DNA of 55,266 nt. Source: Sulfurovum sp. (GTDB lineage: Bacteria; Campylobacterota; Campylobacteria; Campylobacterales; Sulfurovaceae). Below the pieces are notes generated by a model. That model had not been told where the DNA came from, did not search any database, and saw nothing but the letters and a program-made list of their open reading frames with translations. Where the stretch lies: assembly GCA_027063305.1 (NCBI GenBank), contig JAMORY010000015.1, forward strand, positions 1-55,266, read 5' to 3'. Of the stretch, positions 5,976 through 18,315 are shown piece by piece. A program made the position numbers and the translations under genes. Within the stretch, counting starts at the first letter, position 1. Each line of letters opens with the position of its first letter.

Positions 5976-7829
5976 ATGTTCGCCCTCTTTCAACGTCTAT
6001 TTGCATCCAGCGTGACCGATGTTCTGCACGTCACCTCCCCCAATGGATTTCACCTGCGCCCCGCCGCTCTCTTCGTCAATGAGGCAAAACGCTTCTCATG
6101 CCGTATCGAAGCGGAGAACCGCGGAAAGATCGTTAATGCGAAGAACCTGAACGAATTTCTCTCTTTGGGTTTGGAGAGGGGAGACCACTTCGACCTGATA
6201 TGCACAGGCTCTGACGCAAAAGAGGCACAAGCGGCACTCATCGCCTGTTTTGAGAGATTGATGCAGGAAGAGAAGCCCCATACCCCTAAAGAGACACCGC
6301 AACCCTCCGATACACAAAGCGAGTCTTTTTATGAAGGTGTATCGCTTCCTCTTACCACGCTGGTCGGATCGGTTGCGATAGCGCCACTATGGCACTACCG
6401 TACTACGACCCGCCAAACAGAACGAAAGCGAGACTTTTCAGAAGCACTCTTGCACACACTCCAAACGCTTGAAACGGAAGCCCATACACACAAGGGGAGG
6501 ACCGAAGCATCGATCTACCGTGCACAGCATGCCTTGCTTCACTCCTTGGCAGAAGATGTAGAGACACTTCAGGCATTTGAGGCGAAGATAGCGCAGAGCA
6601 TGGAGGCTTTGGAAGGAAGCATACTCTCTGCTAAACGCGATGATTTCCGTGATATACTTTTTCGTATCAAAAAGGCCATGGGGGAAGAGAGTGACGTGAC
6701 ATACCCCACGCATCCGTTCATCCTTGTCGCTGACGACCTGCTTCCCTCCCAAATAGCGACACTTACCCAAACCGCTGTTGCGGGGGTTATCTTGCAAAAA
6801 AGCTCACCGTTCTCCCATACGGCGATCCTTCTTAAAGAACACCCCTTCCCTTCCGCCCTGTTAAGCGAGGAGATACCCGACGAAGTTAGCGAAGAGGTGA
6901 TCCTCGATACCGTACATGCACAACTCGTTCACAAGCCCACGCCAAACGACCTTCAACTAGCAAAAGAGACCGTGAAGAAGATCTGCACACAGGCCGATAC
7001 CATGCAAGAACAACGTTTTGCACCGGCAACGACACAAGATGGCGAACGAATATTCGTCTATGCCAACGTGACCGATGTAGCGAGTGCCAAAGAGGCCAAA
7101 AGTGCCGGTGCCGAGGGAGTCGGGCTTTTGCGTACGGAATTTCTTTTCAAGGAACATCTCCCCTCTCACCAAGCACAGGTCGATGCCTATAGCGAGATCT
7201 TCAAGCTTTTTGACGATGTTACCGTACGTACACTGGATATTGGAGGGGATAAGGTGCTTCCTTATATCGATCTTCCCAAAGAGTCCAATCCCTTTCTGGG
7301 TATACGGGGGATCCGTCTGCTCGAAACCCACCCCGACCTCATCGAAGCACAACTGCATGCTATTTTTGAAGCGGCAAACGGAAAGTCGGTAAGAGTGATG
7401 TTCCCCATGATATCCACTCCCGAAGAGTTCTCTAAGGCCAAAGCCTTTGCAATGCAAACCGCACAGAAGTACGGGCTCTCCATCTCCTCTATACGTTTTG
7501 GGATGATGATAGAGGTTCCATCCGTACTCTTTATGCTTGATGCGTTCAATGCTATCGTAGACTTCTACTCCATCGGAAGTAACGATCTTACGCAATATCT
7601 CTACGCCATCGAGCGTACCCATCCTGCACTCCAGCCACCACATGATACACCGGCACTCTTTTATGCCATCGCACACATCACCGCACACTGCAACAAACCT
7701 GTAAGTCTATGTGGCGAGATAGCCGGAGACCCCACACACACCGCAGCACTCATTCAAAGCAAGATCCGCACCTTCAGCCTCTCTCCCGCACGCATCGCAC
7801 AGATCAAAGAAGCGATCAGGTCGATCTAA
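5976..7829 (+). CDS. HPr-Enzyme I fusion of the PTS
   Basis: The protein has 617 residues and two PTS phosphocarriers in one chain. Residues ~16-100 are HPr, with phospho-acceptor His26 in SPNGFHLRPAAL. The position of regulatory Ser46 in other HPr proteins is Asn here (NAKNL). After a polar linker (about 105-120) comes Enzyme I. It shows active-site His281 in SPFSHTAILLKEH, the PEP-binding GLLRTEFLFKEH and DIGGDKVLPY, and the C-terminal SLCGEIAGD with Cys579. It should take phosphate from PEP and pass it to EIIA. EIICB lies downstream on this strand, and EIIA and nagA are 5 kb away on the other strand. PTS proteins are uncommon in Campylobacterota, which suggests acquisition. The 3' end overlaps the convergent regulator gene by 4 bp. 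Confidence 0.93.
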   Translation: MFALFQRLFASSVTDVLHVTSPNGFHLRPAALFVNEAKRFSCRIEAENRGKIVNAKNLNEFLSLGLERGDHFDLICTGSDAKEAQAALIACFERLMQEEKPHTPKETPQPSDTQSESFYEGVSLPLTTLVGSVAIAPLWHYRTTTRQTERKRDFSEALLHTLQTLETEAHTHKGRTEASIYRAQHALLHSLAEDVETLQAFEAKIAQSMEALEGSILSAKRDDFRDILFRIKKAMGEESDVTYPTHPFILVADDLLPSQIATLTQTAVAGVILQKSSPFSHTAILLKEHPFPSALLSEEIPDEVSEEVILDTVHAQLVHKPTPNDLQLAKETVKKICTQADTMQEQRFAPATTQDGERIFVYANVTDVASAKEAKSAGAEGVGLLRTEFLFKEHLPSHQAQVDAYSEIFKLFDDVTVRTLDIGGDKVLPYIDLPKESNPFLGIRGIRLLETHPDLIEAQLHAIFEAANGKSVRVMFPMISTPEEFSKAKAFAMQTAQKYGLSISSIRFGMMIEVPSVLFMLDAFNAIVDFYSIGSNDLTQYLYAIERTHPALQPPHDTPALFYAIAHITAHCNKPVSLCGEIAGDPTHTAALIQSKIRTFSLSPARIAQIKEAIRSI

Positions 7830-8206
7830 CGATCGAGCTTCAGCAATCTTGCAAAGCTCACCTTATAGTCACTAGACATGATCGGTTTGCGAAGATAGAG
7901 GTCAAAAAAAGCTTTTTGATCCTCATACTTACTCGGGTAGATCGTCAATGCGGCAATACGTGTTTGTTCACTCTTTTTCAGTGCCGCTTTGGCGATCTCC
8001 ACACCTGAGCCATCTGGCAGGTTCATATCGATGATCATCGCATCATAGGGTTCGTTCTCTTCGATCATCCCCAGCGCTTCTGCAACGGAGGAAGCGATAT
8101 CGACATCGATACCGATATGGTTCTCGCTCATGAACGCCGTGATCACTTTACTCTCGAACGCCAAATTGTACGCTACGTCATCTACGATCAGAATTCGTTT
8201 TGCCAT
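7826..8206 (-). CDS. Single-domain response regulator
   Basis: The start is ATG 8206, preceded by AAGGAGAT. A longer reading from 8236 has no such site. The 126-residue product is only a receiver domain: acidic pair in ILIVDD (residues 9-10), phospho-acceptor Asp60 in MIIDMNLPDGSG, Thr in ALTIYP and Lys in LRKPI. There is no output domain, so it acts by protein contact, like CheY or Spo0F. It sits between the two PTS genes on the opposite strand. No kinase is adjacent; the nearest is the one at 10829-11887. Confidence 0.88.
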   Translation of the reverse strand: MAKRILIVDDVAYNLAFESKVITAFMSENHIGIDVDIASSVAEALGMIEENEPYDAMIIDMNLPDGSGVEIAKAALKKSEQTRIAALTIYPSKYEDQKAFFDLYLRKPIMSSDYKVSFARLLKLDR

Positions 8207-8396
8207 TTTCGTATCTCCTTTATCTTCATATCTCATTTGGCCGCGCCGATCTACTACACTTGGGCGGCACCACTAAGATGTATCATAAGGCATTCTGTCA
8301 AAAATAACTATAGGACTATTCTTAAAGCCCTCTTCGTATCGGCGGTAAAGATGCAATATGGTATCTTTTCACATACAAAGTACAAAAGGAAAACGC

Positions 8397-9785
8397 ATGT
8401 TCAACCTGCTTCAAAAGATCGGGAAAGCGCTTATGACCCCTATTGCCGTACTGCCTGTTGCCGCACTGCTTCTAAGACTCGGTTTTGGAGATATCTTCGA
8501 CGGAACGGTCGCACTGGTGATGAAGAGTGCCGGAGAGGCTGTCTTTAGCAATCTCGATCTTCTTTTCGGGATCGGGATCGCTTACGGTCTGGCAAAGAAC
8601 AATGACGGTGCGGCGGCACTTAGCGGTGCGGTCGGTGTGCTCATTGCAAAAGCGGTCTATACAGGCATAGACAAAGAGGTGAACATGGGTGTCTTTGTCG
8701 GGATCATCATCGGTGTGATCGCCGGTACGCTCTACAACCGTTTCCATACGATCAAACTACCTGAGTTTCTGGGCTTCTTCGGAGGAAAGCGCTTCGTACC
8801 TATCGTCACTGCACTCTGTGCCATTATCGTCGGGATGCTGGCAGGATACTTCTGGCACTATGCCCAAAGCGGTATCGATGCCTTCTCCAATGCTATTATC
8901 GGACTGGGAGAAGTCGGAACATTCATCTACGGAACGCTCAATCGTCTACTCATCCCTCTTGGTCTGCATCATATTCTTAACTCCGTCTTCTGGTTCCAGC
9001 TGGGTGAATACATCTATCTCAAAGAGGGAACGGAAGTTATCGCCAACGGTGACCTTCACCGCTTCTTTGCAGGAGATCCGAGTGCGGGTATCTATATGTC
9101 TGGCTTCTATGTAGTCATGATGTTCGGACTGCCCGCTATGGCACTGGCGATCTGGATCACCACACCCAAGGCCTATAGAAAAAAAGCGGGTGCGATCCTT
9201 GCAGGTGTGGCGTTTACCTCTTTTCTTACTGGTATCACCGAGCCTCTTGAATTCCTCTTTCTCTTTGCAGCACCCGCACTTTTCGTACTGCATGCACTAT
9301 TGACCGGTCTGGCACTTGCCACAGCACAAGCACTCGATATTCATGCGGGGTTCGGCTTCTCCGCAGGTTTGATCGACTATATCATCAACTATAAACTTGC
9401 CACCCATCCGCTACGCATCATCCCTTTGGGGCTGCTCTTTGCCCTGCTCTATTTTAGCCTGAGCTACCTGCTCATACGCAAACTCCACTTGAACATTCTT
9501 GAAGTAGAGCTCAAAGAGCCTTCAAGTACACCCCCTGTAGAGACAGACAGTACCGCCGAAGCGTTTATTCGTGCATTAGGGGGCAAAGAGAATATTGTCC
9601 GTACCGATGCCTGCATTACCCGCTTGCGTATGGAGGTAAGAACAAGCAAAATATTAAGTGACGAAGCCTTTTTATCCCTTGGTGCAAAAGGAGTCATACG
9701 CCCGAATGAGCAGACTGTTCAGGTCGTACTCGGAGCAAAGGCTGAACAGATTGCCGAGTCGATCAGGGAGATCGTGGGGAAGTAA
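8397..9785 (+). CDS. nagE: PTS EIICB, N-acetylglucosamine type
   Basis: Start ATG 8397 follows AAAAGGAAAACGC. The product has 462 residues. The IIC permease domain spans about 1-370, with the family start FNLLQKIGKALMTPIAVLPVAA, LGLHHILNSVFWFQ and the substrate-site loop FLTGITEPLEFLFLF. A linker leads to a IIB domain (about 385-462) with phospho-Cys406 in DACITRLRMEVR. No IIA domain is fused, unlike E. coli NagE; a separate EIIA is at 12617-13087. The closest families are the GlcNAc and glucose permeases. NagA in the same block supports GlcNAc, but glucosamine or glucose cannot be excluded. Confidence 0.88.
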   Translation: MFNLLQKIGKALMTPIAVLPVAALLLRLGFGDIFDGTVALVMKSAGEAVFSNLDLLFGIGIAYGLAKNNDGAAALSGAVGVLIAKAVYTGIDKEVNMGVFVGIIIGVIAGTLYNRFHTIKLPEFLGFFGGKRFVPIVTALCAIIVGMLAGYFWHYAQSGIDAFSNAIIGLGEVGTFIYGTLNRLLIPLGLHHILNSVFWFQLGEYIYLKEGTEVIANGDLHRFFAGDPSAGIYMSGFYVVMMFGLPAMALAIWITTPKAYRKKAGAILAGVAFTSFLTGITEPLEFLFLFAAPALFVLHALLTGLALATAQALDIHAGFGFSAGLIDYIINYKLATHPLRIIPLGLLFALLYFSLSYLLIRKLHLNILEVELKEPSSTPPVETDSTAEAFIRALGGKENIVRTDACITRLRMEVRTSKILSDEAFLSLGAKGVIRPNEQTVQVVLGAKAEQIAESIREIVGK

Positions 9786-9900
9786 TGTATCAGTCGAAGT
9801 GATAAAAGAGATAATGCCTACAAATACCTGCTTCTTTATTTTTTTATTGTAGAATATAGGAAAATTTTTATCTATGTACCCAAAAGGCTATGCGATTTTC

Positions 9901-10821
9901 ATGAAAAAACTGATCTTATTTCTTTTCTTGTTCCTGTTTAACGGCTGTTCTGTTAATAACCTGATGACATGGATCAAACTCGATCGGGTAGAACAGATCA
10001 GTCACAATGCCTATATGACACACTACCGTGCCTACTTTCAGCGCGATGGTCTTCGTACGATCCGTCACGGAAAGAAGTATCTCTTCTTCTACAACAAGAA
10101 AAAAGGTGACCTTGCGATCCTTCTTCGTGACAAGCAACACTATAAGCTTTACAGTATCACTCATCCCAGTCCACTCAACACCTATCTGCCTTCCGACCGT
10201 AAGCATGGATACTATGCGACCATCAAGGCGTTGAAGAAGCGCGGATATAGACTTGCCTCTCCATCAACCTACGGATTTACCTACAGTGTTCAGGCCCAAC
10301 GCTATAAGGGTGTGCGTACCTATAGAGTAGATGTAAAGGATTACCGTAAGCTCATCTCCCTGTACAAAAAAGCCATACGCAACTACAATGCAAAATATGT
10401 ACGCCACATACGTACCAAGCTCCCCTCATACTTTATACGAAGCTATTACAACCGCTACAAAGCAAAAGCGAATAGTGCCAAAAAGAGAGCACAGCAGCTT
10501 CGTATCATTGCACAAAAGCTAGGGTGGATCAAACCTGAACGCAAAGAGGAGAAACGCAAGCAGCCATCCAAACAAGAGATAAAACAGACTTCGGAAGCTC
10601 AGAACGAGCCGCAGGAGATCAATACACCGCAAAAGACTGAAACCAAAGAGCCTCGCACCAGCCCGAAAAAAACACAGACCGCTTCTTTGAAAAAGAAAGA
10701 AGAGAGCCTGCTAGAGAACGGTTCGCTAGAGGAGCTCATTACAGCATACAAACAGAACGGAAGCCCTGAGTACAAAGCAAAGATCCTTGCACGTATCAAA
10801 GAGCTTCAGCACAAAAAGTAG
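9901..10821 (+). CDS. Hypothetical lipoprotein, basic
   Basis: Start ATG 9901 is chosen because it gives a clean signal peptide. Another ATG at 9874 would put polar residues ahead of it. The product has 306 residues. A hydrophobic stretch ends in a lipobox-like FLFNGC with Cys16. The mature part is rich in Tyr, Arg and Lys up to about residue 220. A Lys/Glu/Pro/Thr-rich linker (about 221-280) follows, and the chain ends in a short helical segment. I recognise no family. It follows nagE by 115 bp and faces the histidine kinase gene tail to tail. Confidence 0.7.
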   Translation: MKKLILFLFLFLFNGCSVNNLMTWIKLDRVEQISHNAYMTHYRAYFQRDGLRTIRHGKKYLFFYNKKKGDLAILLRDKQHYKLYSITHPSPLNTYLPSDRKHGYYATIKALKKRGYRLASPSTYGFTYSVQAQRYKGVRTYRVDVKDYRKLISLYKKAIRNYNAKYVRHIRTKLPSYFIRSYYNRYKAKANSAKKRAQQLRIIAQKLGWIKPERKEEKRKQPSKQEIKQTSEAQNEPQEINTPQKTETKEPRTSPKKTQTASLKKKEESLLENGSLEELITAYKQNGSPEYKAKILARIKELQHKK

Positions 10822-10828
10822 GTGTTGC

Positions 10829-11887
10829 CTACGCCTCCTCGACAATGATCTGTTTAAGATCAAGGATCATGATCGTCCCCAGTGATTCTTGACTGTCAAC
10901 ACTGATCTTGATCCCCAGTTCATCACACAACTTCTTTACGATATGAAGCCCGATACCGATACCGCGCTCTTGCTCTTTGTAGTAACGGTTGAATATCTTT
11001 GAGGGGTTCTTGATACCCTTTCCTGTATCTTGAATATAGAGGGTCGTCTCTTCCAAGTATAGACGGACCCTTCCGTTTTGTGCATTATACTTACTGGCAT
11101 TGCTTACAAGGTTGTCGATAATACGAACGAACGCCTCCTTATTGCATGAAAGGGAGACATCCATCTCCTCTACCGTATAGATGATATCGGGAAAAAGTGT
11201 TTGAAAATAGCGCATACGCTCATACAGAAGCGTATCGAGTGCAAAAACCTCGGTCTGTGTCGGGATACCTTTAAGGAATATCTGTAGGTTGTCCTGTAGG
11301 GCAAGAATGGTCTGGATGTTATGCTCCATCCGCTCGATCTTCTCACTCTCCCCCTTCTCCCGTTTCAGCAATTTCAGATTGATACGCAGTGAGCTGATAG
11401 GGGTATTGAGATCATGCAGAATATCTTTGACGAACTCTTCATTAAGCTGAAGCGCACGCTGAAGCGGACGCAGGGCATAGATGGCAAAGAGCAAGGAGAC
11501 TACCATGGCAAAGAGCGTATAGAAGATACTCTTTCGCATGACCTCGTTCTTAAGATGCTCCACATAGTGCAAGTAGCGTGCCTGAGGGTAAACGATCTTC
11601 ATCACGTAGCGGTCGACGGTAGGTACCTTGTAGTACCCGTAGAACTCTCCATGATCGTGTTGAAGGGTCTGAAGCGGCATATAGTCACGCTTCTCTACAA
11701 AGTCCGTCACCATACCGTTACACTCGACCTTATAGGCACAAAGCTTCATCTCCATCTGTATTCTATCGGCGATCTGCTGCTTCTTCTCATGGTACTCATT
11801 CCAAAAGTTCCACCCCAGAAGCACCTCAAGAAGTATGAAAAAGATAAAAAAGCTCTTTAAGAGAGACTCCCACTCATAGTTCTTCAA
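10829..11887 (-). CDS. Sensor histidine kinase
   Basis: The protein has 352 residues. Membrane segments at about 11-29 and 121-138 enclose a ~90-residue periplasmic sensor with two cysteines (Cys50, Cys56). The dimerisation helix carries phospho-His158 in ILHDLNTPISSL. The ATPase domain shows the N box DNLVSNASKYN, the G1 box DTGKGI and the G2 box GIGLHIVKKL. Its start lies 14 bp inside the regulator gene, so the pair is one unit. It is the last gene of the minus-strand series that includes lipase, fadL, fadD, nagA and EIIA. The signal is unknown. Confidence 0.92.
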   Translation of the reverse strand: MKNYEWESLLKSFFIFFILLEVLLGWNFWNEYHEKKQQIADRIQMEMKLCAYKVECNGMVTDFVEKRDYMPLQTLQHDHGEFYGYYKVPTVDRYVMKIVYPQARYLHYVEHLKNEVMRKSIFYTLFAMVVSLLFAIYALRPLQRALQLNEEFVKDILHDLNTPISSLRINLKLLKREKGESEKIERMEHNIQTILALQDNLQIFLKGIPTQTEVFALDTLLYERMRYFQTLFPDIIYTVEEMDVSLSCNKEAFVRIIDNLVSNASKYNAQNGRVRLYLEETTLYIQDTGKGIKNPSKIFNRYYKEQERGIGIGLHIVKKLCDELGIKISVDSQESLGTIMILDLKQIIVEEA

Positions 11888-12512
11888 GCATATACCCCTG
11901 TCCTCGGATATTACGTATCTCGATACCGAGCTTGTTCTTCAGTTTTGCCAGATTGACCCGTAGCGCATTGGCATTGGGGTTCTCAAGGCAGTCCATCAGC
12001 TGCATCGTATCGACCACTTTCCCTTTACGGGTGATCAACTCGTGGAAGAGCTGCTGCTGTACCTTCCCCAATGCGATCAGTTCAGCCCCTTTTCTGACCT
12101 CTCTGCGGTACGGATCATAGATCACATCCCCATAATGGACCATATTCTTATCCTGAGTATCGTACTTTACCTTGATACGCACCACAAGCTCTTCCGGATC
12201 GAAGGGTTTTTTGATGTAATCCTCCGCACCGATGTTGAATGCATGGGTAATGGAGTTGATATCAGTCAGTGCCGTAATGTAGATCACCGGTGTCTCGTCA
12301 CCAGACTCTTTAAGCGCTTTAAAAACATCAAAACCGTTCTCCTCGGGAACATTCACATCGAAGATATAGAGATCGTACTTCTTGGAGAAGGTCAGATCAT
12401 ACACCTCCACCCCCGTATAAGCGGTATCGACATGATACCCCTCATACTCAAGGTACTCCTTTAACGAATCGCTCAATATTCTGTCGTCTTCAAGTAAAAG
12501 TATATTCATCAT
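11874..12512 (-). CDS. OmpR-family response regulator
   Basis: The protein has 212 residues. The receiver domain has acidic residues in LLLEDDR, phospho-acceptor Asp52 in IFDVNVPEENG, Thr in YITALTD and Lys in KKPFDPEELV. The C-terminal winged helix (about 130-212) is compact and ends in IRNIRGQGYMLEEL. The Shine-Dalgarno sequence is weak. The start is 6 bp after the stop of the 32-residue membrane peptide, which suggests coupling. It should act with the kinase just downstream. Its targets may include this operon or nagE, but I could not find a matching operator. Confidence 0.9.
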   Translation of the reverse strand: MMNILLLEDDRILSDSLKEYLEYEGYHVDTAYTGVEVYDLTFSKKYDLYIFDVNVPEENGFDVFKALKESGDETPVIYITALTDINSITHAFNIGAEDYIKKPFDPEELVVRIKVKYDTQDKNMVHYGDVIYDPYRREVRKGAELIALGKVQQQLFHELITRKGKVVDTMQLMDCLENPNANALRVNLAKLKNKLGIEIRNIRGQGYMLEEL

Positions 12513-12518
12513 ACTCTG

Positions 12519-12617
12519 TTACTTTTTCTTCTTTGGGGAGATCAGTACAATAAATGTACCGACCAAGATAAGCGCATACAGCGCATAGTGATAAAACTCT
12601 CCGTCGCTAGGTTGCAT
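12519..12617 (-). CDS. Small membrane protein, 32 residues
   Basis: An ATG at 12617 overlaps the TAA stop of the EIIA gene by one base (TAATG). The frame runs for 32 codons to TAA, 6 bp before the response-regulator start. The product begins MQPSDGEFYHY, has one hydrophobic segment (about residues 12-27, ending GTFIVLIS) and ends PKKKK. A single membrane span with a basic C terminus is expected, with the tail in the cytoplasm. Packing between EIIA and the regulator with no spare bases, and the GAGGTGAAG ribosome-binding site, support real translation. I know no family for it. A link to the kinase or the PTS permease is inference from position. Confidence 0.65.
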   Translation of the reverse strand: MQPSDGEFYHYALYALILVGTFIVLISPKKKK

Positions 12618-13087
12618 TACTTCACCTCCATTATAAGATCTCCCTGTTTGACGATACACAGGTGTTTCTCTATCTCTTTAACATCACTCTCTTCAGTCAT
12701 GATCACAGGCGTGAGGGTCGATTTCGCATGTGCCTCAAGATAGGGAAGATCGACCTTGATGATCGCATCTCCCGCATTCACTTCGCTCCCCTCCTCCACA
12801 AGACGTTCAAACCCTTTCCCGTCCAAGGCGACCGTCTCAAGACCGATATGCACCATCACTTCAAGATCCTTGTCACTCTTGATACTAAAAGCATGATCTG
12901 TAGAGAATATCTTGGTGACCTTCCCGGATATTGGGGCACAGAAGGTATCCCCTGCCGGACGGACCGCCACCCCGTCCCCAACCATTTTCTGGGAAAATAC
13001 GGCATCGGGAACCTCACTGATATCGATCACCTGACCATCGACAGGCGAGAGTATCTCTCTTTGTTTTCTCTTGAACAATCCAAACAT
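12617..13087 (-). CDS. crr: PTS EIIA, glucose/GlcNAc family
   Basis: The protein has 156 residues and is very like E. coli EIIA(Glc). It has SPVDGQVIDISEVPDAVFS, then TDHAFSIKSD with His65 (the partner His of the family) and VMVHIGLETVALDG with phospho-acceptor His80, then DLPYLEAHAKSTLTPV. It starts with FGLFKRK, as stand-alone IIA proteins do. It should receive phosphate from the HPr-EI fusion and pass it to Cys406 of EIICB. Its ATG directly follows the nagA TAG. Confidence 0.93.
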   Translation of the reverse strand: MFGLFKRKQREILSPVDGQVIDISEVPDAVFSQKMVGDGVAVRPAGDTFCAPISGKVTKIFSTDHAFSIKSDKDLEVMVHIGLETVALDGKGFERLVEEGSEVNAGDAIIKVDLPYLEAHAKSTLTPVIMTEESDVKEIEKHLCIVKQGDLIMEVK

Positions 13088-14167
13088 CTATTGGCTCCTT
13101 TGATATTTCACCTCACCGGCGACAATTGTTGTTATAATACTGAAATCTTCATCAAATATCACTATATCCGCATTATATCCCTTTTGCAACCGTCCTTTGC
13201 GAAGTCCGAGCTTTTGTGCCGGAATCTTCGTGACAAGATCAACGACCTGCCAAAGAGAAAGCGCTGTATGCGTACGCATATGCCTCAATGCATCGTTCAT
13301 GCGTAGCACACTGCCCGCAAGGGTTCCATCATCCAGTACTGCCTTCCCCTCCAAGACAGATACCTGCTGCCCTCCAAGATCATAAGTACCCTCACGCATA
13401 CACCCCGCACGCATGGCATCGGTGATCAGCATCAAACGTACACCTTTCATCTTCCATGCAAGGCGTAGATGGTGCGGATGGGTATGGACCATATCTGCGA
13501 TCAGGTCACAGGTGACATCATCTCTATCGAAACACGCCCCTACCACACCCGGTTCCCGATGATGATAAGGGAGCATGGCATTGAACAGATGTGTCACATG
13601 GGAGACCCCCATATCGAATGCCTGCATACTCTGCGCATAGGTCGCTTCGGAGTGCCCAAGACTAAGAACGATCTGGGGATAGCGTGCCCGACACTCCCGT
13701 ATGAACGCTTCAGCCCCCGCCATCTCCGGTGCAAGGGTGATCATACGGACAATCTCATGATAGGGGGCTAGCCAAGAGAGGGTCGCCTCCTGAATATGTG
13801 CGGCATCCTGTGCTCCTTGTTTGGAGGGGTTGATAAAGGGGCCTTCAAGATGCACGCCGATGATCCTCGCCCCGCTGAGCGTATCTTTCACCTTAACGAC
13901 GGTCTCCAAAGCCGCTTCGATCTTCGTACGTGCCATGGTCATCGTCGTTGCCAAAAATGCCGTCGTTCCCGTACGAAGCAGTGTCGTAGAGATCGTTTCC
14001 AAGGCTTGGGGTGTTGCATCCATCACATCGGCACCTCCGCTACCGTGAATGTGAATATCGATAAATCCGGCACTCACATACGCCCCTTGCGCATCGATCA
14101 CTTCGGCTATGCCCTCCTGAGGCAACGTATCTCCCACAGAAACGATCTGTGAATCAAAAAGGATCAC
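13088..14167 (-). CDS. nagA: N-acetylglucosamine-6-phosphate deacetylase
   Basis: The protein removes acetate from GlcNAc-6-P, the product of the PTS permease. Metal and substrate motifs are present in order: GFIDIHIHGSGG, GVHLEGPFINP, LSLGHSEAT, HLFNAM, and ITDAM with the catalytic Asp. The coordinates use GTG 14167, giving 359 residues. However, the frame stays open and family-like upstream (KAIVNATLVTSEGIV), back to an ATC codon at 14224 that follows AAGGATAGGG. No ATG, GTG or TTG occurs in that stretch. The true start may therefore be the ATC, or a start codon has been lost. No nagB (glucosamine-6-P deaminase) is in the window. Confidence 0.92.
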   Translation of the reverse strand: MILFDSQIVSVGDTLPQEGIAEVIDAQGAYVSAGFIDIHIHGSGGADVMDATPQALETISTTLLRTGTTAFLATTMTMARTKIEAALETVVKVKDTLSGARIIGVHLEGPFINPSKQGAQDAAHIQEATLSWLAPYHEIVRMITLAPEMAGAEAFIRECRARYPQIVLSLGHSEATYAQSMQAFDMGVSHVTHLFNAMLPYHHREPGVVGACFDRDDVTCDLIADMVHTHPHHLRLAWKMKGVRLMLITDAMRAGCMREGTYDLGGQQVSVLEGKAVLDDGTLAGSVLRMNDALRHMRTHTALSLWQVVDLVTKIPAQKLGLRKGRLQKGYNADIVIFDEDFSIITTIVAGEVKYQRSQ

Positions 14168-14236
14168 GCTATTTGGAACGATCCCTTCGGAGGTGACTAG
14201 TGTGGCATTGACGATCGCTTTGATATCCCTATCCTT

Positions 14237-15802
14237 TTATCGTTGTTGGTTCTGAAGCTGCTCTTTAAGTACACGCTTCAGCACTTTTCCCGTTGCATTC
14301 TTCGGCAGACTTTCGACCACATAGAGATGCTTGGGTAGTTTATAGTTGGCAAGGTGTGCTCGCATATGTTTTTTCAGTGCCGCTTCATCCAACTTCTCTT
14401 CTCCCTCTTCCAGCTCGATATACGCTACGGGGATCTCTCCACTCTTCTCATCGGACACGCCGACCACCGCGGATGCGGCAACCCCGCTAAAACTATCGAT
14501 CACCTCTTCGATCTCTCTTGGGTAGATATTGATCCCTTTGGAGATGATCAGGTCTTTTTTTCTATCGACGATGAACAAGAAGCCCTCCTCGTCCATATAG
14601 CCCATATCTCCGGTTAACAACCAGCCGTTGATGATGGTCTCTGCGGTCGCTTCAGGACGTTGCCAGTATCCTTGCATCACATTGTCCCCTCGAACGATGA
14701 TATCGCCTATCTTACCACGAGGAAGCTCCTCCATCTCTTCATTGACGATCTTCATCTCATAGCCATAGAGCGCCGTACCGACCGACCCGACCTTCTGCTT
14801 CTTGAAGGTGTTCATACAGACTGCCGGACTTGCTTCGGAGAGTCCATATCCCTCAAGAAGGGTCGCTCGCTTGAACTTCTTTGCCATCGCATCGAGGGTC
14901 TTTTGCTGTAACGCAGCCGCTCCGGAGATAAATGCACGGATACGGTTGAACCACATAAAGTACCATGGAAGCTTCGCTTTTGCCAAGGCATTATAGACAT
15001 CGGGGATACCAAAAAAGACCGTAACACGTTTGAGAAGAACCTGCTTGAAGATATTGGAGAAGGGTTGAATAGAACGGATGATCACAATACTCGCTCCCAC
15101 ATAAAGCGGCAACATCACACCGATAGAGAAGGTAAAGGTGTGGAACATCGGCAAGAATACGATCGCTCTGTCTCGTGCAGTGACATTGATGGTTTTTCGT
15201 CCGGACTCTGTATTGGAAAGGACATTACGATAGCTTAGCATCGCCCCTTTGGGACGCCCTGTCGTTCCTGAAGTATAGATGATCACAGCGGTATCATCCA
15301 GCATACACGGTGTGGTCATATCCGTTGGAGTATCCACCGAAGCAAGAGAGGAGAAGCAAAGGTCGCCAGAACGTACAGGGGATGCCTCTTCCCCTTCCCA
15401 GATGATCTCTTTACACACTTCTCGCACCAAAGAGGCATCTGCCACACTGCGGTACTGCCATGAAGCGATCAGCAACGACGCGCCGCTATCTTTGAGAATA
15501 TAGCTGACCTCCTCCTCTTTTAAAAAGGTGTTGACAGGCACGATGATCGCACCGATCTTCGAGATAGCGAAGATACTGTAGACGAATTCCGGTGAGTTCC
15601 GTAACAAAAGCGCAACACGATCCCCCCGCTTCACCCCTTTCTGTACCAGTACGGAAGCAAGCTTATCCGCATGTGCCAGCACCTCCTTATAGGAGATCTT
15701 CTCATCATCCACCAAAAGGGCACTTTTGCGTCCTCTTTTTCGTGCATGGTGCACGATCATCTCATAGAAGGTACTAAAAGGGTAGTCCGTCCTAGAAGGC
15801 AT
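14237..15802 (-). CDS. fadD: Long-chain acyl-CoA ligase (AMP-binding)
   Basis: The protein has 521 residues. It has the AMP-binding P-loop IIYTSGTTGRPKGAMLSYRN, the adenine site EGYGLSEASP, the hinge LTGDMGYMDEEGF(LF)IVDRKKD with LIISKGINIYPREIEE, and the C-terminal catalytic Lys in PKNATGKVLKR. It activates a carboxylic acid as acyl-AMP and then acyl-CoA. The FadL-like porin and lipase next to it favour long-chain fatty acids. Its start overlaps the fadL-like gene by 11 bp, and its stop is 12 bp from the probable nagA start. No beta-oxidation genes are in the window, so the acyl-CoA may feed lipid synthesis instead. Confidence 0.9.
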   Translation of the reverse strand: MPSRTDYPFSTFYEMIVHHARKRGRKSALLVDDEKISYKEVLAHADKLASVLVQKGVKRGDRVALLLRNSPEFVYSIFAISKIGAIIVPVNTFLKEEEVSYILKDSGASLLIASWQYRSVADASLVREVCKEIIWEGEEASPVRSGDLCFSSLASVDTPTDMTTPCMLDDTAVIIYTSGTTGRPKGAMLSYRNVLSNTESGRKTINVTARDRAIVFLPMFHTFTFSIGVMLPLYVGASIVIIRSIQPFSNIFKQVLLKRVTVFFGIPDVYNALAKAKLPWYFMWFNRIRAFISGAAALQQKTLDAMAKKFKRATLLEGYGLSEASPAVCMNTFKKQKVGSVGTALYGYEMKIVNEEMEELPRGKIGDIIVRGDNVMQGYWQRPEATAETIINGWLLTGDMGYMDEEGFLFIVDRKKDLIISKGINIYPREIEEVIDSFSGVAASAVVGVSDEKSGEIPVAYIELEEGEEKLDEAALKKHMRAHLANYKLPKHLYVVESLPKNATGKVLKRVLKEQLQNQQR

Positions 15803-17009
15803 AGGAGATACCTACCGTTGTCAAATACGCACCTCCCCCGTCGAACGATCCGCCGTAAGAGAGCACTTCGTTCTCCGCCACTCCCGGTGTAAGAGAGCGG
15901 GACTCTTTACTATCCCAAAGAAACGCAGCACCCCAAGAGAGTGCTTCGGTCTGCTGATAGCGGAATCCCATACTGAAAATCTTCGCATCACTGTCAGGGA
16001 GTTCAAAACCAATGGTCTTATCGGGTACAGGGGTCTCATCCAGTGCGAACCCCATCATGAAAGTGATCTTGTTAAGCACCATCGTTGCTCCGATACGGAA
16101 CGTATTGGTATCTTTCCAGTGCTTATCGATAGGGTCGTCGAACTTCTCGACCAAAAGATCGTTCGCCAACGGCTCTCCATAGTTGAAGTCCAGATATTTA
16201 TAGCTTGACCAGTAGGTGCGCTCATAGTTGAACTCCAAGGTAAAGGTCTCATCCCATGTTTTCGAGATAGCGATGTTCAACGCCGCAGGCAGTGGTACGG
16301 TCACATCGGCACTATACTGTTTTCCAACATCCCCGAACCAGATATTCGCCTCTCCCTCCTCCTTAAGATCGATATTGGAACGATAGGTCACAGCGATATT
16401 GATATCATCGGTAGGACGATAGGTCATCGCGAGGTTATATCCAAACTCAAGGGTATCTCCTTCCATATGACGCTTCAGCGGAGCGATATCGCCACCGTCA
16501 CTCTTAACGACACCTTCACTATAGACCACACGTATCCCCCCACCGACGGCGAACTTCTCATTGACCTTATAGGAGAAAACAGGGTTGAGCTCAACGTTCT
16601 TAAGCGTGAACTCCTCGGCGTAGAGCTTCTGATAAGCAGTATCCCACCGCTTGGTCAGACCGCCCGGAACGGTCATACTCACTCCCCAACGCCAATTGCC
16701 TATCGGATTGGAGACATAGTGCATGGTCGGTGTAACGATATTCTCCTCTTCCGATTCACCCGAATAGGGCTCTATGAGCGTATAGGTCGTCGAAGGGAGA
16801 TGGATCAGCGTCAACGCTCCGTCAAAATACTGCTTATCACCCATGAACGCCATATTGGCAGGGTTGAAGTATGCCGTATCCGCTTCGGTCGTATGGGCGA
16901 CATATGCAGCCCCCAACGCCATGGAGTTCAATGACTGCTCCGGCAGTTTATAGGCACCTGCAACCGCCGCGCTTCCCAGTAGTGTCGTTAGTAGTAGTGT
17001 TCGTTTCAT
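15792..17009 (-). CDS. FadL/TodX-family outer-membrane transporter
   Basis: The protein has 405 residues. A signal peptide ends in AAVAGA (about residue 19) and is followed by the family N terminus: YKLPEQSLNSMALGAAYVA and then ADTAYFNPANMAF, the NPA hatch motif. The rest is beta-barrel-like and ends in aromatic SYAF, typical of outer-membrane insertion. The family takes long-chain fatty acids or other hydrophobic molecules across the outer membrane. A lipase is 11 bp upstream and an acyl-CoA ligase overlaps downstream, so fatty acids freed by the lipase are the likely substrate. Confidence 0.9.
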   Translation of the reverse strand: MKRTLLLTTLLGSAAVAGAYKLPEQSLNSMALGAAYVAHTTEADTAYFNPANMAFMGDKQYFDGALTLIHLPSTTYTLIEPYSGESEEENIVTPTMHYVSNPIGNWRWGVSMTVPGGLTKRWDTAYQKLYAEEFTLKNVELNPVFSYKVNEKFAVGGGIRVVYSEGVVKSDGGDIAPLKRHMEGDTLEFGYNLAMTYRPTDDINIAVTYRSNIDLKEEGEANIWFGDVGKQYSADVTVPLPAALNIAISKTWDETFTLEFNYERTYWSSYKYLDFNYGEPLANDLLVEKFDDPIDKHWKDTNTFRIGATMVLNKITFMMGFALDETPVPDKTIGFELPDSDAKIFSMGFRYQQTEALSWGAAFLWDSKESRSLTPGVAENEVLSYGGSFDGGGAYLTTVGISYAF

Positions 17010-17020
17010 CTCTTCTCCCC

Positions 17021-18292
17021 TTAATATCCGATGGTCGCTTCTCTAATTCCAGAGAATATCTGTGCCGTAAGACCGTATGCCGGTGCGGCACACTCCGCAT
17101 GCCCCAACAAACTTCCGTCACCCATCCCGTATGCAGCGAGTGTCGCCTCTACGGGTACCAGTGCCACATCTGCCGCATCCATCGCCTGCATGGTACCTTC
17201 GGTCAACTCCGAGATCGCGTACGGGATCACATCATCCCCTTGACAATGGATCAGGCGTACCGGTGTTTGCGGTGCCCACTGGTAGGTATCGTTGTCCAAC
17301 ATCGCTTCTTTGAACCAATACTCCGGATCGTTAAAGTAATTCTCCACTACCGCAGAGGTAAATAGCCCATCCTCTCCGCTGGTGACCGTTGTCAGCTCAG
17401 GGTCTATCTCCTCACGGGTATATAAGCCGTCAAAGAGTGTCGGCAGCTTGGAAGCATACGGTTCATTGATCAACTCCGTTAAGGGTCTGTTATAGGCGTT
17501 CGCATACGCATACGCCACATCCGCCATGAACGAAGGAACCCCCAATGTATCTGAAAAGAGCACGCCCTGAGCCATCGCATCAAGGGCATAGGGACCTGCC
17601 ATAGGTGCGGCAAGCGTTACTTGCATACTCCCCTCCGCCTCGATCTTCTCCAGTGCTGCCATTGCAGCATAACCGCCTTCGCTATAACCGGTCAAGAAGA
17701 GCTGTCCATTAAGCGGAATGTTATTATCCGCAGCGAACTTTCGTGCCGCTTCAATGAAGTCAACGGTCGCATTCGCTAAAGAGCGCTTCAAGACAAAGGG
17801 ATGATAGTGCCCAAAAGAGTCTCCAAATCCGATATAGTCCGCCTGAAGCGTGACAAAGGCGGTAAGCGAGGTTAAAATGACCGGTGCTCCGTCAGGAGAG
17901 CTTGTATCCAACGCGATCTGTGTCGGTGCCTCTTTATTGGCGAAGATCGTACCATGAGAATCACTCACTACGGAGAAACCGAGCTGTTTGACCACGTCAG
18001 GTACACCTGTAGGTATGACCATCAGACCGGATACGGCAACTTCATTCCCCTCTTCATCGGTCGTGGTATAGGGGATCTTATAGGCTTTATAACCATACAC
18101 CGTGGTATTCTCGTCCACACCGGGAACCCCTTGTTCCAAAAGGCTATACTTGATGCTCTTCCCGTCAAGATCGACCACCACTTCTCCGCCAATGACAGTT
18201 TCGTTCGCAGGCTGAGAGAGGTCGCTACTGCCACATCCGCTTAACCATAACAGTGATGCAACCATCACCCCTCGTATTACCGTTCGTTCCAT
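17021..18292 (-). CDS. Secreted lipase/esterase lipoprotein
   Basis: Start ATG 18292 is chosen because AGGAGG lies 7 bases upstream; a GTG two codons earlier is too close. The product has 423 residues. A lipoprotein signal ends in LWLSGC (Cys20), so it is exported and lipid-anchored. The alpha/beta-hydrolase core has the nucleophile elbow GYSEGGYAA, the acid in HCQGDDVIPY and the His in LGHAECAAP. The oxyanion region SDSHG and the segment ADYIGFGDS match the secretory lipase (LIP) family. It begins the lipid part of the operon, 23 bp after nfo. Confidence 0.85.
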   Translation of the reverse strand: MERTVIRGVMVASLLWLSGCGSSDLSQPANETVIGGEVVVDLDGKSIKYSLLEQGVPGVDENTTVYGYKAYKIPYTTTDEEGNEVAVSGLMVIPTGVPDVVKQLGFSVVSDSHGTIFANKEAPTQIALDTSSPDGAPVILTSLTAFVTLQADYIGFGDSFGHYHPFVLKRSLANATVDFIEAARKFAADNNIPLNGQLFLTGYSEGGYAAMAALEKIEAEGSMQVTLAAPMAGPYALDAMAQGVLFSDTLGVPSFMADVAYAYANAYNRPLTELINEPYASKLPTLFDGLYTREEIDPELTTVTSGEDGLFTSAVVENYFNDPEYWFKEAMLDNDTYQWAPQTPVRLIHCQGDDVIPYAISELTEGTMQAMDAADVALVPVEATLAAYGMGDGSLLGHAECAAPAYGLTAQIFSGIREATIGY

Positions 18293-18315
18293 TTTCACTC
18301 CTCCTTTTGTTAAAA

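Follow-up and report, generated by a model that had tools for sequence, protein, structure and literature searches.

The PTS and NagA genes of the Sulfurovum locus

The window, the 55,266 nt stretch of DNA analyzed here from a sulfur-oxidizing Sulfurovum sp., forms contig 15 in the 34-contig assembly of a 2.03 Mb genome with a completeness of 99.96%. Four intact ORFs, as named by Pfam and NCBIfam, encode an HPr-EI fusion (positions 5976-7829, + strand, 617 aa), a NagE-type EIICB (8397-9785, + strand, 462 aa), a Crr-type EIIA (12617-13087, - strand, 156 aa) and the N-acetylglucosamine (GlcNAc)-6-phosphate deacetylase NagA (13088-14224, - strand), just where the original prediction had placed a fusion, a GlcNAc-type EIICB, an EIIA and NagA. 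EI, HPr, EIIA, EIIB and EIIC are all present with their His/His/His/Cys phospho-acceptors, and these are found at the residues that had been claimed: His281 and His26 of the fusion, His80 of EIIA and Cys406 of EIICB. The acceptor residues and surrounding motifs are kept among the relatives with the sole exception of a truncated HPr-EI in genome G219 (L023, 7830-9590), in which the HLRP start of HPr is missing and the open frame contains no start codon, a defect due to a frameshift, an assembly error or decay. A contaminating contig in the window assembly was ruled out, as the same neighbors are found in the complete, single-contig genomes of three relatives (G221, G225 and G264).

The HPr-EI fusion was characterized by Pfam and NCBIfam searches, motifs, a family alignment (A2) and an AlphaFold model. 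HPr spans residues ~12-94 (PTS-HPr, 5.8e-20), followed by the EI N-domain (~120-340) and the PEP-binding C-domain (~345-617; PEP-utilizers, 4.8e-07; PEP-utilizers_C, 1.1e-78); the chain contains His26, His281 and Cys579. No separate Pfam family was reported for the EI N-terminal domain, and in the AlphaFold model (pLDDT 84.9) the helices of this domain are kept and a solved Enzyme I is matched over ~555 columns. The fusion is the fastest-evolving part of the locus, with a mean pairwise identity of 49% (42% for the EI N-domain in a nine-genome subset), compared to 64% for EIIA and 74% for EIICB, the best-conserved PTS protein.

EIICB matches PTS_EIIC (6.9e-71) and PTS_EIIB (3.4e-10), with Cys406 in the motif ACITRLR (alignment A1). 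Its best NCBIfam model is the N-acetylglucosamine IIBC family TIGR01998 at 524.6 bits, slightly under the equivalog cut-off of 553.2 bits, as are the EIICB proteins of all 18 genomes that carry the gene. A longer ORF beginning at 8358 is an alternative, and the relatives begin at MFNLLQ. EIIA matches PTS_EIIA_1 (2.2e-48) and has the conserved His motifs, with His65 and His80. NagA scores 335.4 bits against TIGR00221, above the cut-off of 225.65, and its best solved match is the NagA structure 2vhl (2.1e-77). There is no ATG, GTG or TTG at 14224; the first standard start in the NagA frame is a GTG at 14167, giving an ORF of 13088-14167. The codon at 14224 is ATC, which is preceded by AAGGATAGGG and aligned with the ATG of the relatives. 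This ATC probably is the homologous start; it is a rare start codon or else reflects an error in the sequence. Promoter-like sites were not detected above the level seen in shuffled sequence.

Distribution and gene order in the Sulfurovaceae

To our knowledge, Campylobacterota usually are treated as being without PTS sugar uptake. We surveyed 397 genomes from across the phylum for PTS genes of the GlcNAc/glucose class. Only 18 of them, all from the family of the window, have an EIICB (TIGR01998), and these 18 also are the ones with an EIIA (PF00358) that passes the curated cut-off. The scarcity of the PTS in this phylum, also part of the original prediction, thus holds for this class, which was found nowhere else in the sample. 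The carriers comprise 10 of the 11 genomes of the genus of the window as well as members of three sister genera, and the loci from named genomes are Sulfurovum. The 30 family genomes fall into two sets: 18 have all four of HPr, EIIA, EIICB and NagA, and the other 12 have none of them. NagA scores above its cut-off in 18/18 carriers and 0/12 of the others, and each carrier has one HPr and one EIIA.

In most genomes of genus g1, an AAA ATPase gene, HPr-EI and EIICB are followed on the opposite strand by EIIA, NagA, an acyl-CoA ligase and an outer-membrane protein. The ligase adjoins EIIA-NagA in g1 and also in g4 genomes. One g4 genome (G364) retains the full gene order. In the other g4 genomes EIIA, NagA and the ligase lie together, and HPr-EI-EIICB is ~100 kb away or on a different contig. 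HPr-EI and EIICB directly adjoin each other or share a few bases in most relatives; in the window, a response regulator gene (7826-8236, - strand) intervenes. Also interposed in the window are genes for a protein of 315 aa and for a two-component pair. The pair lies between EIICB and EIIA here as well as in the relatives L024 and L025, and is missing from most loci.

We also noted a different GlcNAc/glucose PTS in the carrier genome G284 (L036, contig C113, 8306-13950), comprising an EIIA-HPr-EI triple fusion, an EIIC that bears two EIIB domains, and an OprB porin. The NagA of this genome is of the Sulfurovaceae type despite the different PTS, and L036 represents either a displaced PTS or a contaminating contig.

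Origin of the EIICB, EIIA and NagA genes

In phylogenetic trees, the Sulfurovaceae sequences of EIICB (support 100), EIIA (99/98) and NagA (100/99, and 96/92 after more NagA sequences of the family, including that of G284, were added) each group in a single clade. The nearest outsiders for all three proteins are Petrocella (Clostridia) or other Bacillota: EIICB groups with Petrocella with a support of 95 in a quick tree, the corresponding grouping for EIIA is weak (80/49), and NagA lies within a group of Bacillota and Sulfurovaceae, away from the Pseudomonadota. The three genes are also side by side in Petrocella, Selenomonas and Halanaerobacter. The cluster of Petrocella sp. FN5 (L126) has the nearest EIICB outside the phylum (53% identity), but in the Sulfurovaceae EIICB stands behind HPr-EI and the EIIA-NagA run is joined by the acyl-CoA ligase and a FadL-type porin. 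EIICB shares at most 53% identity with any outsider and sits on a long branch (1.02), so that the trees point to a Bacillota-like source rather than to a particular donor.

EI likewise forms one Sulfurovaceae clade (100/100), which is separate and long-branched. The EI tree took in only EI genes near EIICB genes and therefore names no donor for HPr-EI. HPr and EI also are joined in a single protein, next to a NagE-type EII, in the EIIA-HPr-EI triple fusions of Elusimicrobia, Endozoicomonas, Reinekea and Pseudovibrio, and of G284 within the family, but the fusion in the window is without EIIA and its EI belongs to the separate clade.

Judged from these trees and the shared gene order, a single ancient gain of EIICB-EIIA-NagA from a Bacillota-like source, followed by mostly vertical descent, would fit best, and presence in the ancestor of the phylum with vertical descent and many losses is less likely. 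The transfer suggested in the original prediction is plausible as an old, lineage-wide event affecting these three genes, but not as a recent or isolated import: a recent transfer into the window genome alone is ruled out by the single Sulfurovaceae clade with common synteny. The trees do not favor a gammaproteobacterial origin of EIICB or NagA.

Probable fate of GlcNAc

After NagA, GlcNAc recycling branches to peptidoglycan precursor synthesis or to exit through NagB, as described for Caulobacter (eLife, PMC13046382). In searches by family, on which all absences reported here rest, the window genome had no match to the nagB family PF01182, nor did 17 of the 18 carriers. The lone match, in G284, lies between zwf (glucose-6-phosphate dehydrogenase) and edd (6-phosphogluconate dehydratase family); given this zwf-pgl-edd setting we take the gene to encode 6-phosphogluconolactonase, and its position rules it out as evidence for catabolism. 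An alternative SIS-type deaminase in the window genome also was ruled out, as its only SIS proteins are GlmS (765.6 bits) and KpsF/KdsD. A complete nag route, with either type of deaminase, thus was not found in the window genome, and the "complete" amino-sugar use that had been claimed is not supported, judged by the absence of nagB that the original prediction itself had named as a test. NagA and GlmM, both needed for salvage to UDP-GlcNAc, are present; GlmM occurs throughout the family set of 30 genomes.

Elsewhere in the window genome, we found a NagZ-like GH3 beta-N-acetylhexosaminidase gene (L224, 1404-2519, - strand) with a KHFPGHG...DTH motif; its NCBIfam score of 184 falls short of the 207 required. 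Many genomes without the PTS, family members included, carry this gene as well, so that it does not track with the PTS. The N-terminus of the protein is hydrophobic and signal peptide-like, and the enzyme thus appears to be exported; NagZ of E. coli is cytoplasmic.

These observations lead us to propose that the locus probably is a dedicated, single-substrate GlcNAc PTS that feeds amino-sugar salvage rather than carbon use. The apparently exported GH3 hexosaminidase would free GlcNAc during turnover of the cell's own wall, and dead neighbors may be another source. PEP would phosphorylate EI at His281, with the phosphate passing to His26 of the fused HPr, on to His80 of EIIA and then to Cys406 of the EIIB domain. 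GlcNAc, phosphorylated during import by EIIC, would arrive in the cytoplasm as GlcNAc-6-P and be deacetylated by NagA to GlcN-6-P. Because no GlcN-6-P deaminase was found, GlcN-6-P most likely goes to GlmM and could then reach UDP-GlcNAc by way of GlmU, sparing GlmS. An unrelated, unrecognized deaminase is possible and would speak against salvage.

Such a deaminase, or a reversal of GlmS, is what catabolic use of GlcNAc from chitin or peptidoglycan would require, with GlcN-6-P converted to fructose-6-P and the sugar serving as a carbon and nitrogen source. PTS, NagA and NagB are the usual set in other bacteria, such as Caulobacter (PMC13046382), and GH20 hexosaminidases are encoded in three g1 carriers, some of which may process chitin oligomers. 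However, the window genome has no GH20 gene, and the lack of a PF01182 deaminase in any carrier and of an SIS-type deaminase in the window genome weakens the chitin or catabolic reading, advanced in the original prediction, in favor of cell-wall salvage; we regard catabolism as unlikely. It is quite improbable that the PTS serves a different substrate, such as glucose, glucosamine or a mixture: EIICB does score 427.5 bits with the glucose IIBC model of NCBIfam, and the closest solved full-length structures are glucose EIICB proteins, but the GlcNAc model scores ~100 bits higher, and the NagA gene adjoins that of EIIA in g1 and g4 and accompanies the PTS without exception. Least probable is a mainly regulatory PTS with transport secondary, in which phosphorylation of EIIA or HPr-EI would report PEP/pyruvate or amino-sugar supply, a role brought to mind by the two-component pair in the window, L024 and L025 and by Crr-like EIIA as the classic regulator in enterics, but countered by the absence of that pair from most loci, by the strongest conservation being in EIICB (74%, against 64% for EIIA and 49% for HPr-EI), which favors transport, and by the lack of a Ser at the Ser46-like place of HPr (N in the window, alignment A2).

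The GlcNAc salvage system proposed here shares the GlcNAc-branch EIIC and EIIB, the Crr-type EIIA, NagA and the canonical acceptors with the NagE-type systems of E. coli, Caulobacter and Vibrio. It differs from them in lacking NagB and in having HPr fused to EI and a stand-alone EIIA, these being the only HPr and EIIA of the genome; in addition, no NagC or GntR regulator was seen beside the locus. With peptidoglycan GlcNAc recycling (NagZ, NagA, GlmM) the window genome has in common NagA, GlmM and the NagZ-like GH3 enzyme, but here the GH3 enzyme appears to be exported and entry would be through the PTS rather than AmpG/NagK. PTS sugar uptake in Sulfurovum metagenome-assembled genomes has received a one-line passing mention (PMC6899741), and our literature search, which mostly covered sources other than subscription journals, found no paper that deals with this locus, with its spread through the family or with the lack of nagB. 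Much of this family, made up of autotrophs of vents and sulfidic sediments, has one self-contained GlcNAc PTS and lacks the deaminase needed for catabolism. If salvage is the function of this PTS, it would be a clear case of a PTS retained for cell-wall economy and a caution that the presence of a PTS in vent metagenomes does not equal heterotrophy.

Lipid-uptake genes adjoining EIIA-NagA

Three genes on the - strand (14237-18298) lie behind EIIA-NagA in a conserved order. They encode an AMP-binding acyl-CoA ligase (14237-15802) and an OMPP1/FadL/TodX-type outer-membrane transporter (15792-17009; Toluene_X, 6.4e-50), both assigned by Pfam and synteny, and a protein with weak similarity to lipases (17021-18298; LIP, 1.9e-06), which is found in several relatives. 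The conserved order suggests that fatty-acid scavenging is coupled to GlcNAc salvage, and the adjoining genes hint at wider scavenging for the envelope. An extended proposal, which we put forward only tentatively and consider rather doubtful, is that the lithoautotrophs of the Sulfurovum family keep the PTS solely for envelope building blocks, with GlcNAc, and fatty acids obtained through the lipase-like protein, the FadL-type transporter and the ligase, going to wall and membrane synthesis and not to energy or carbon.
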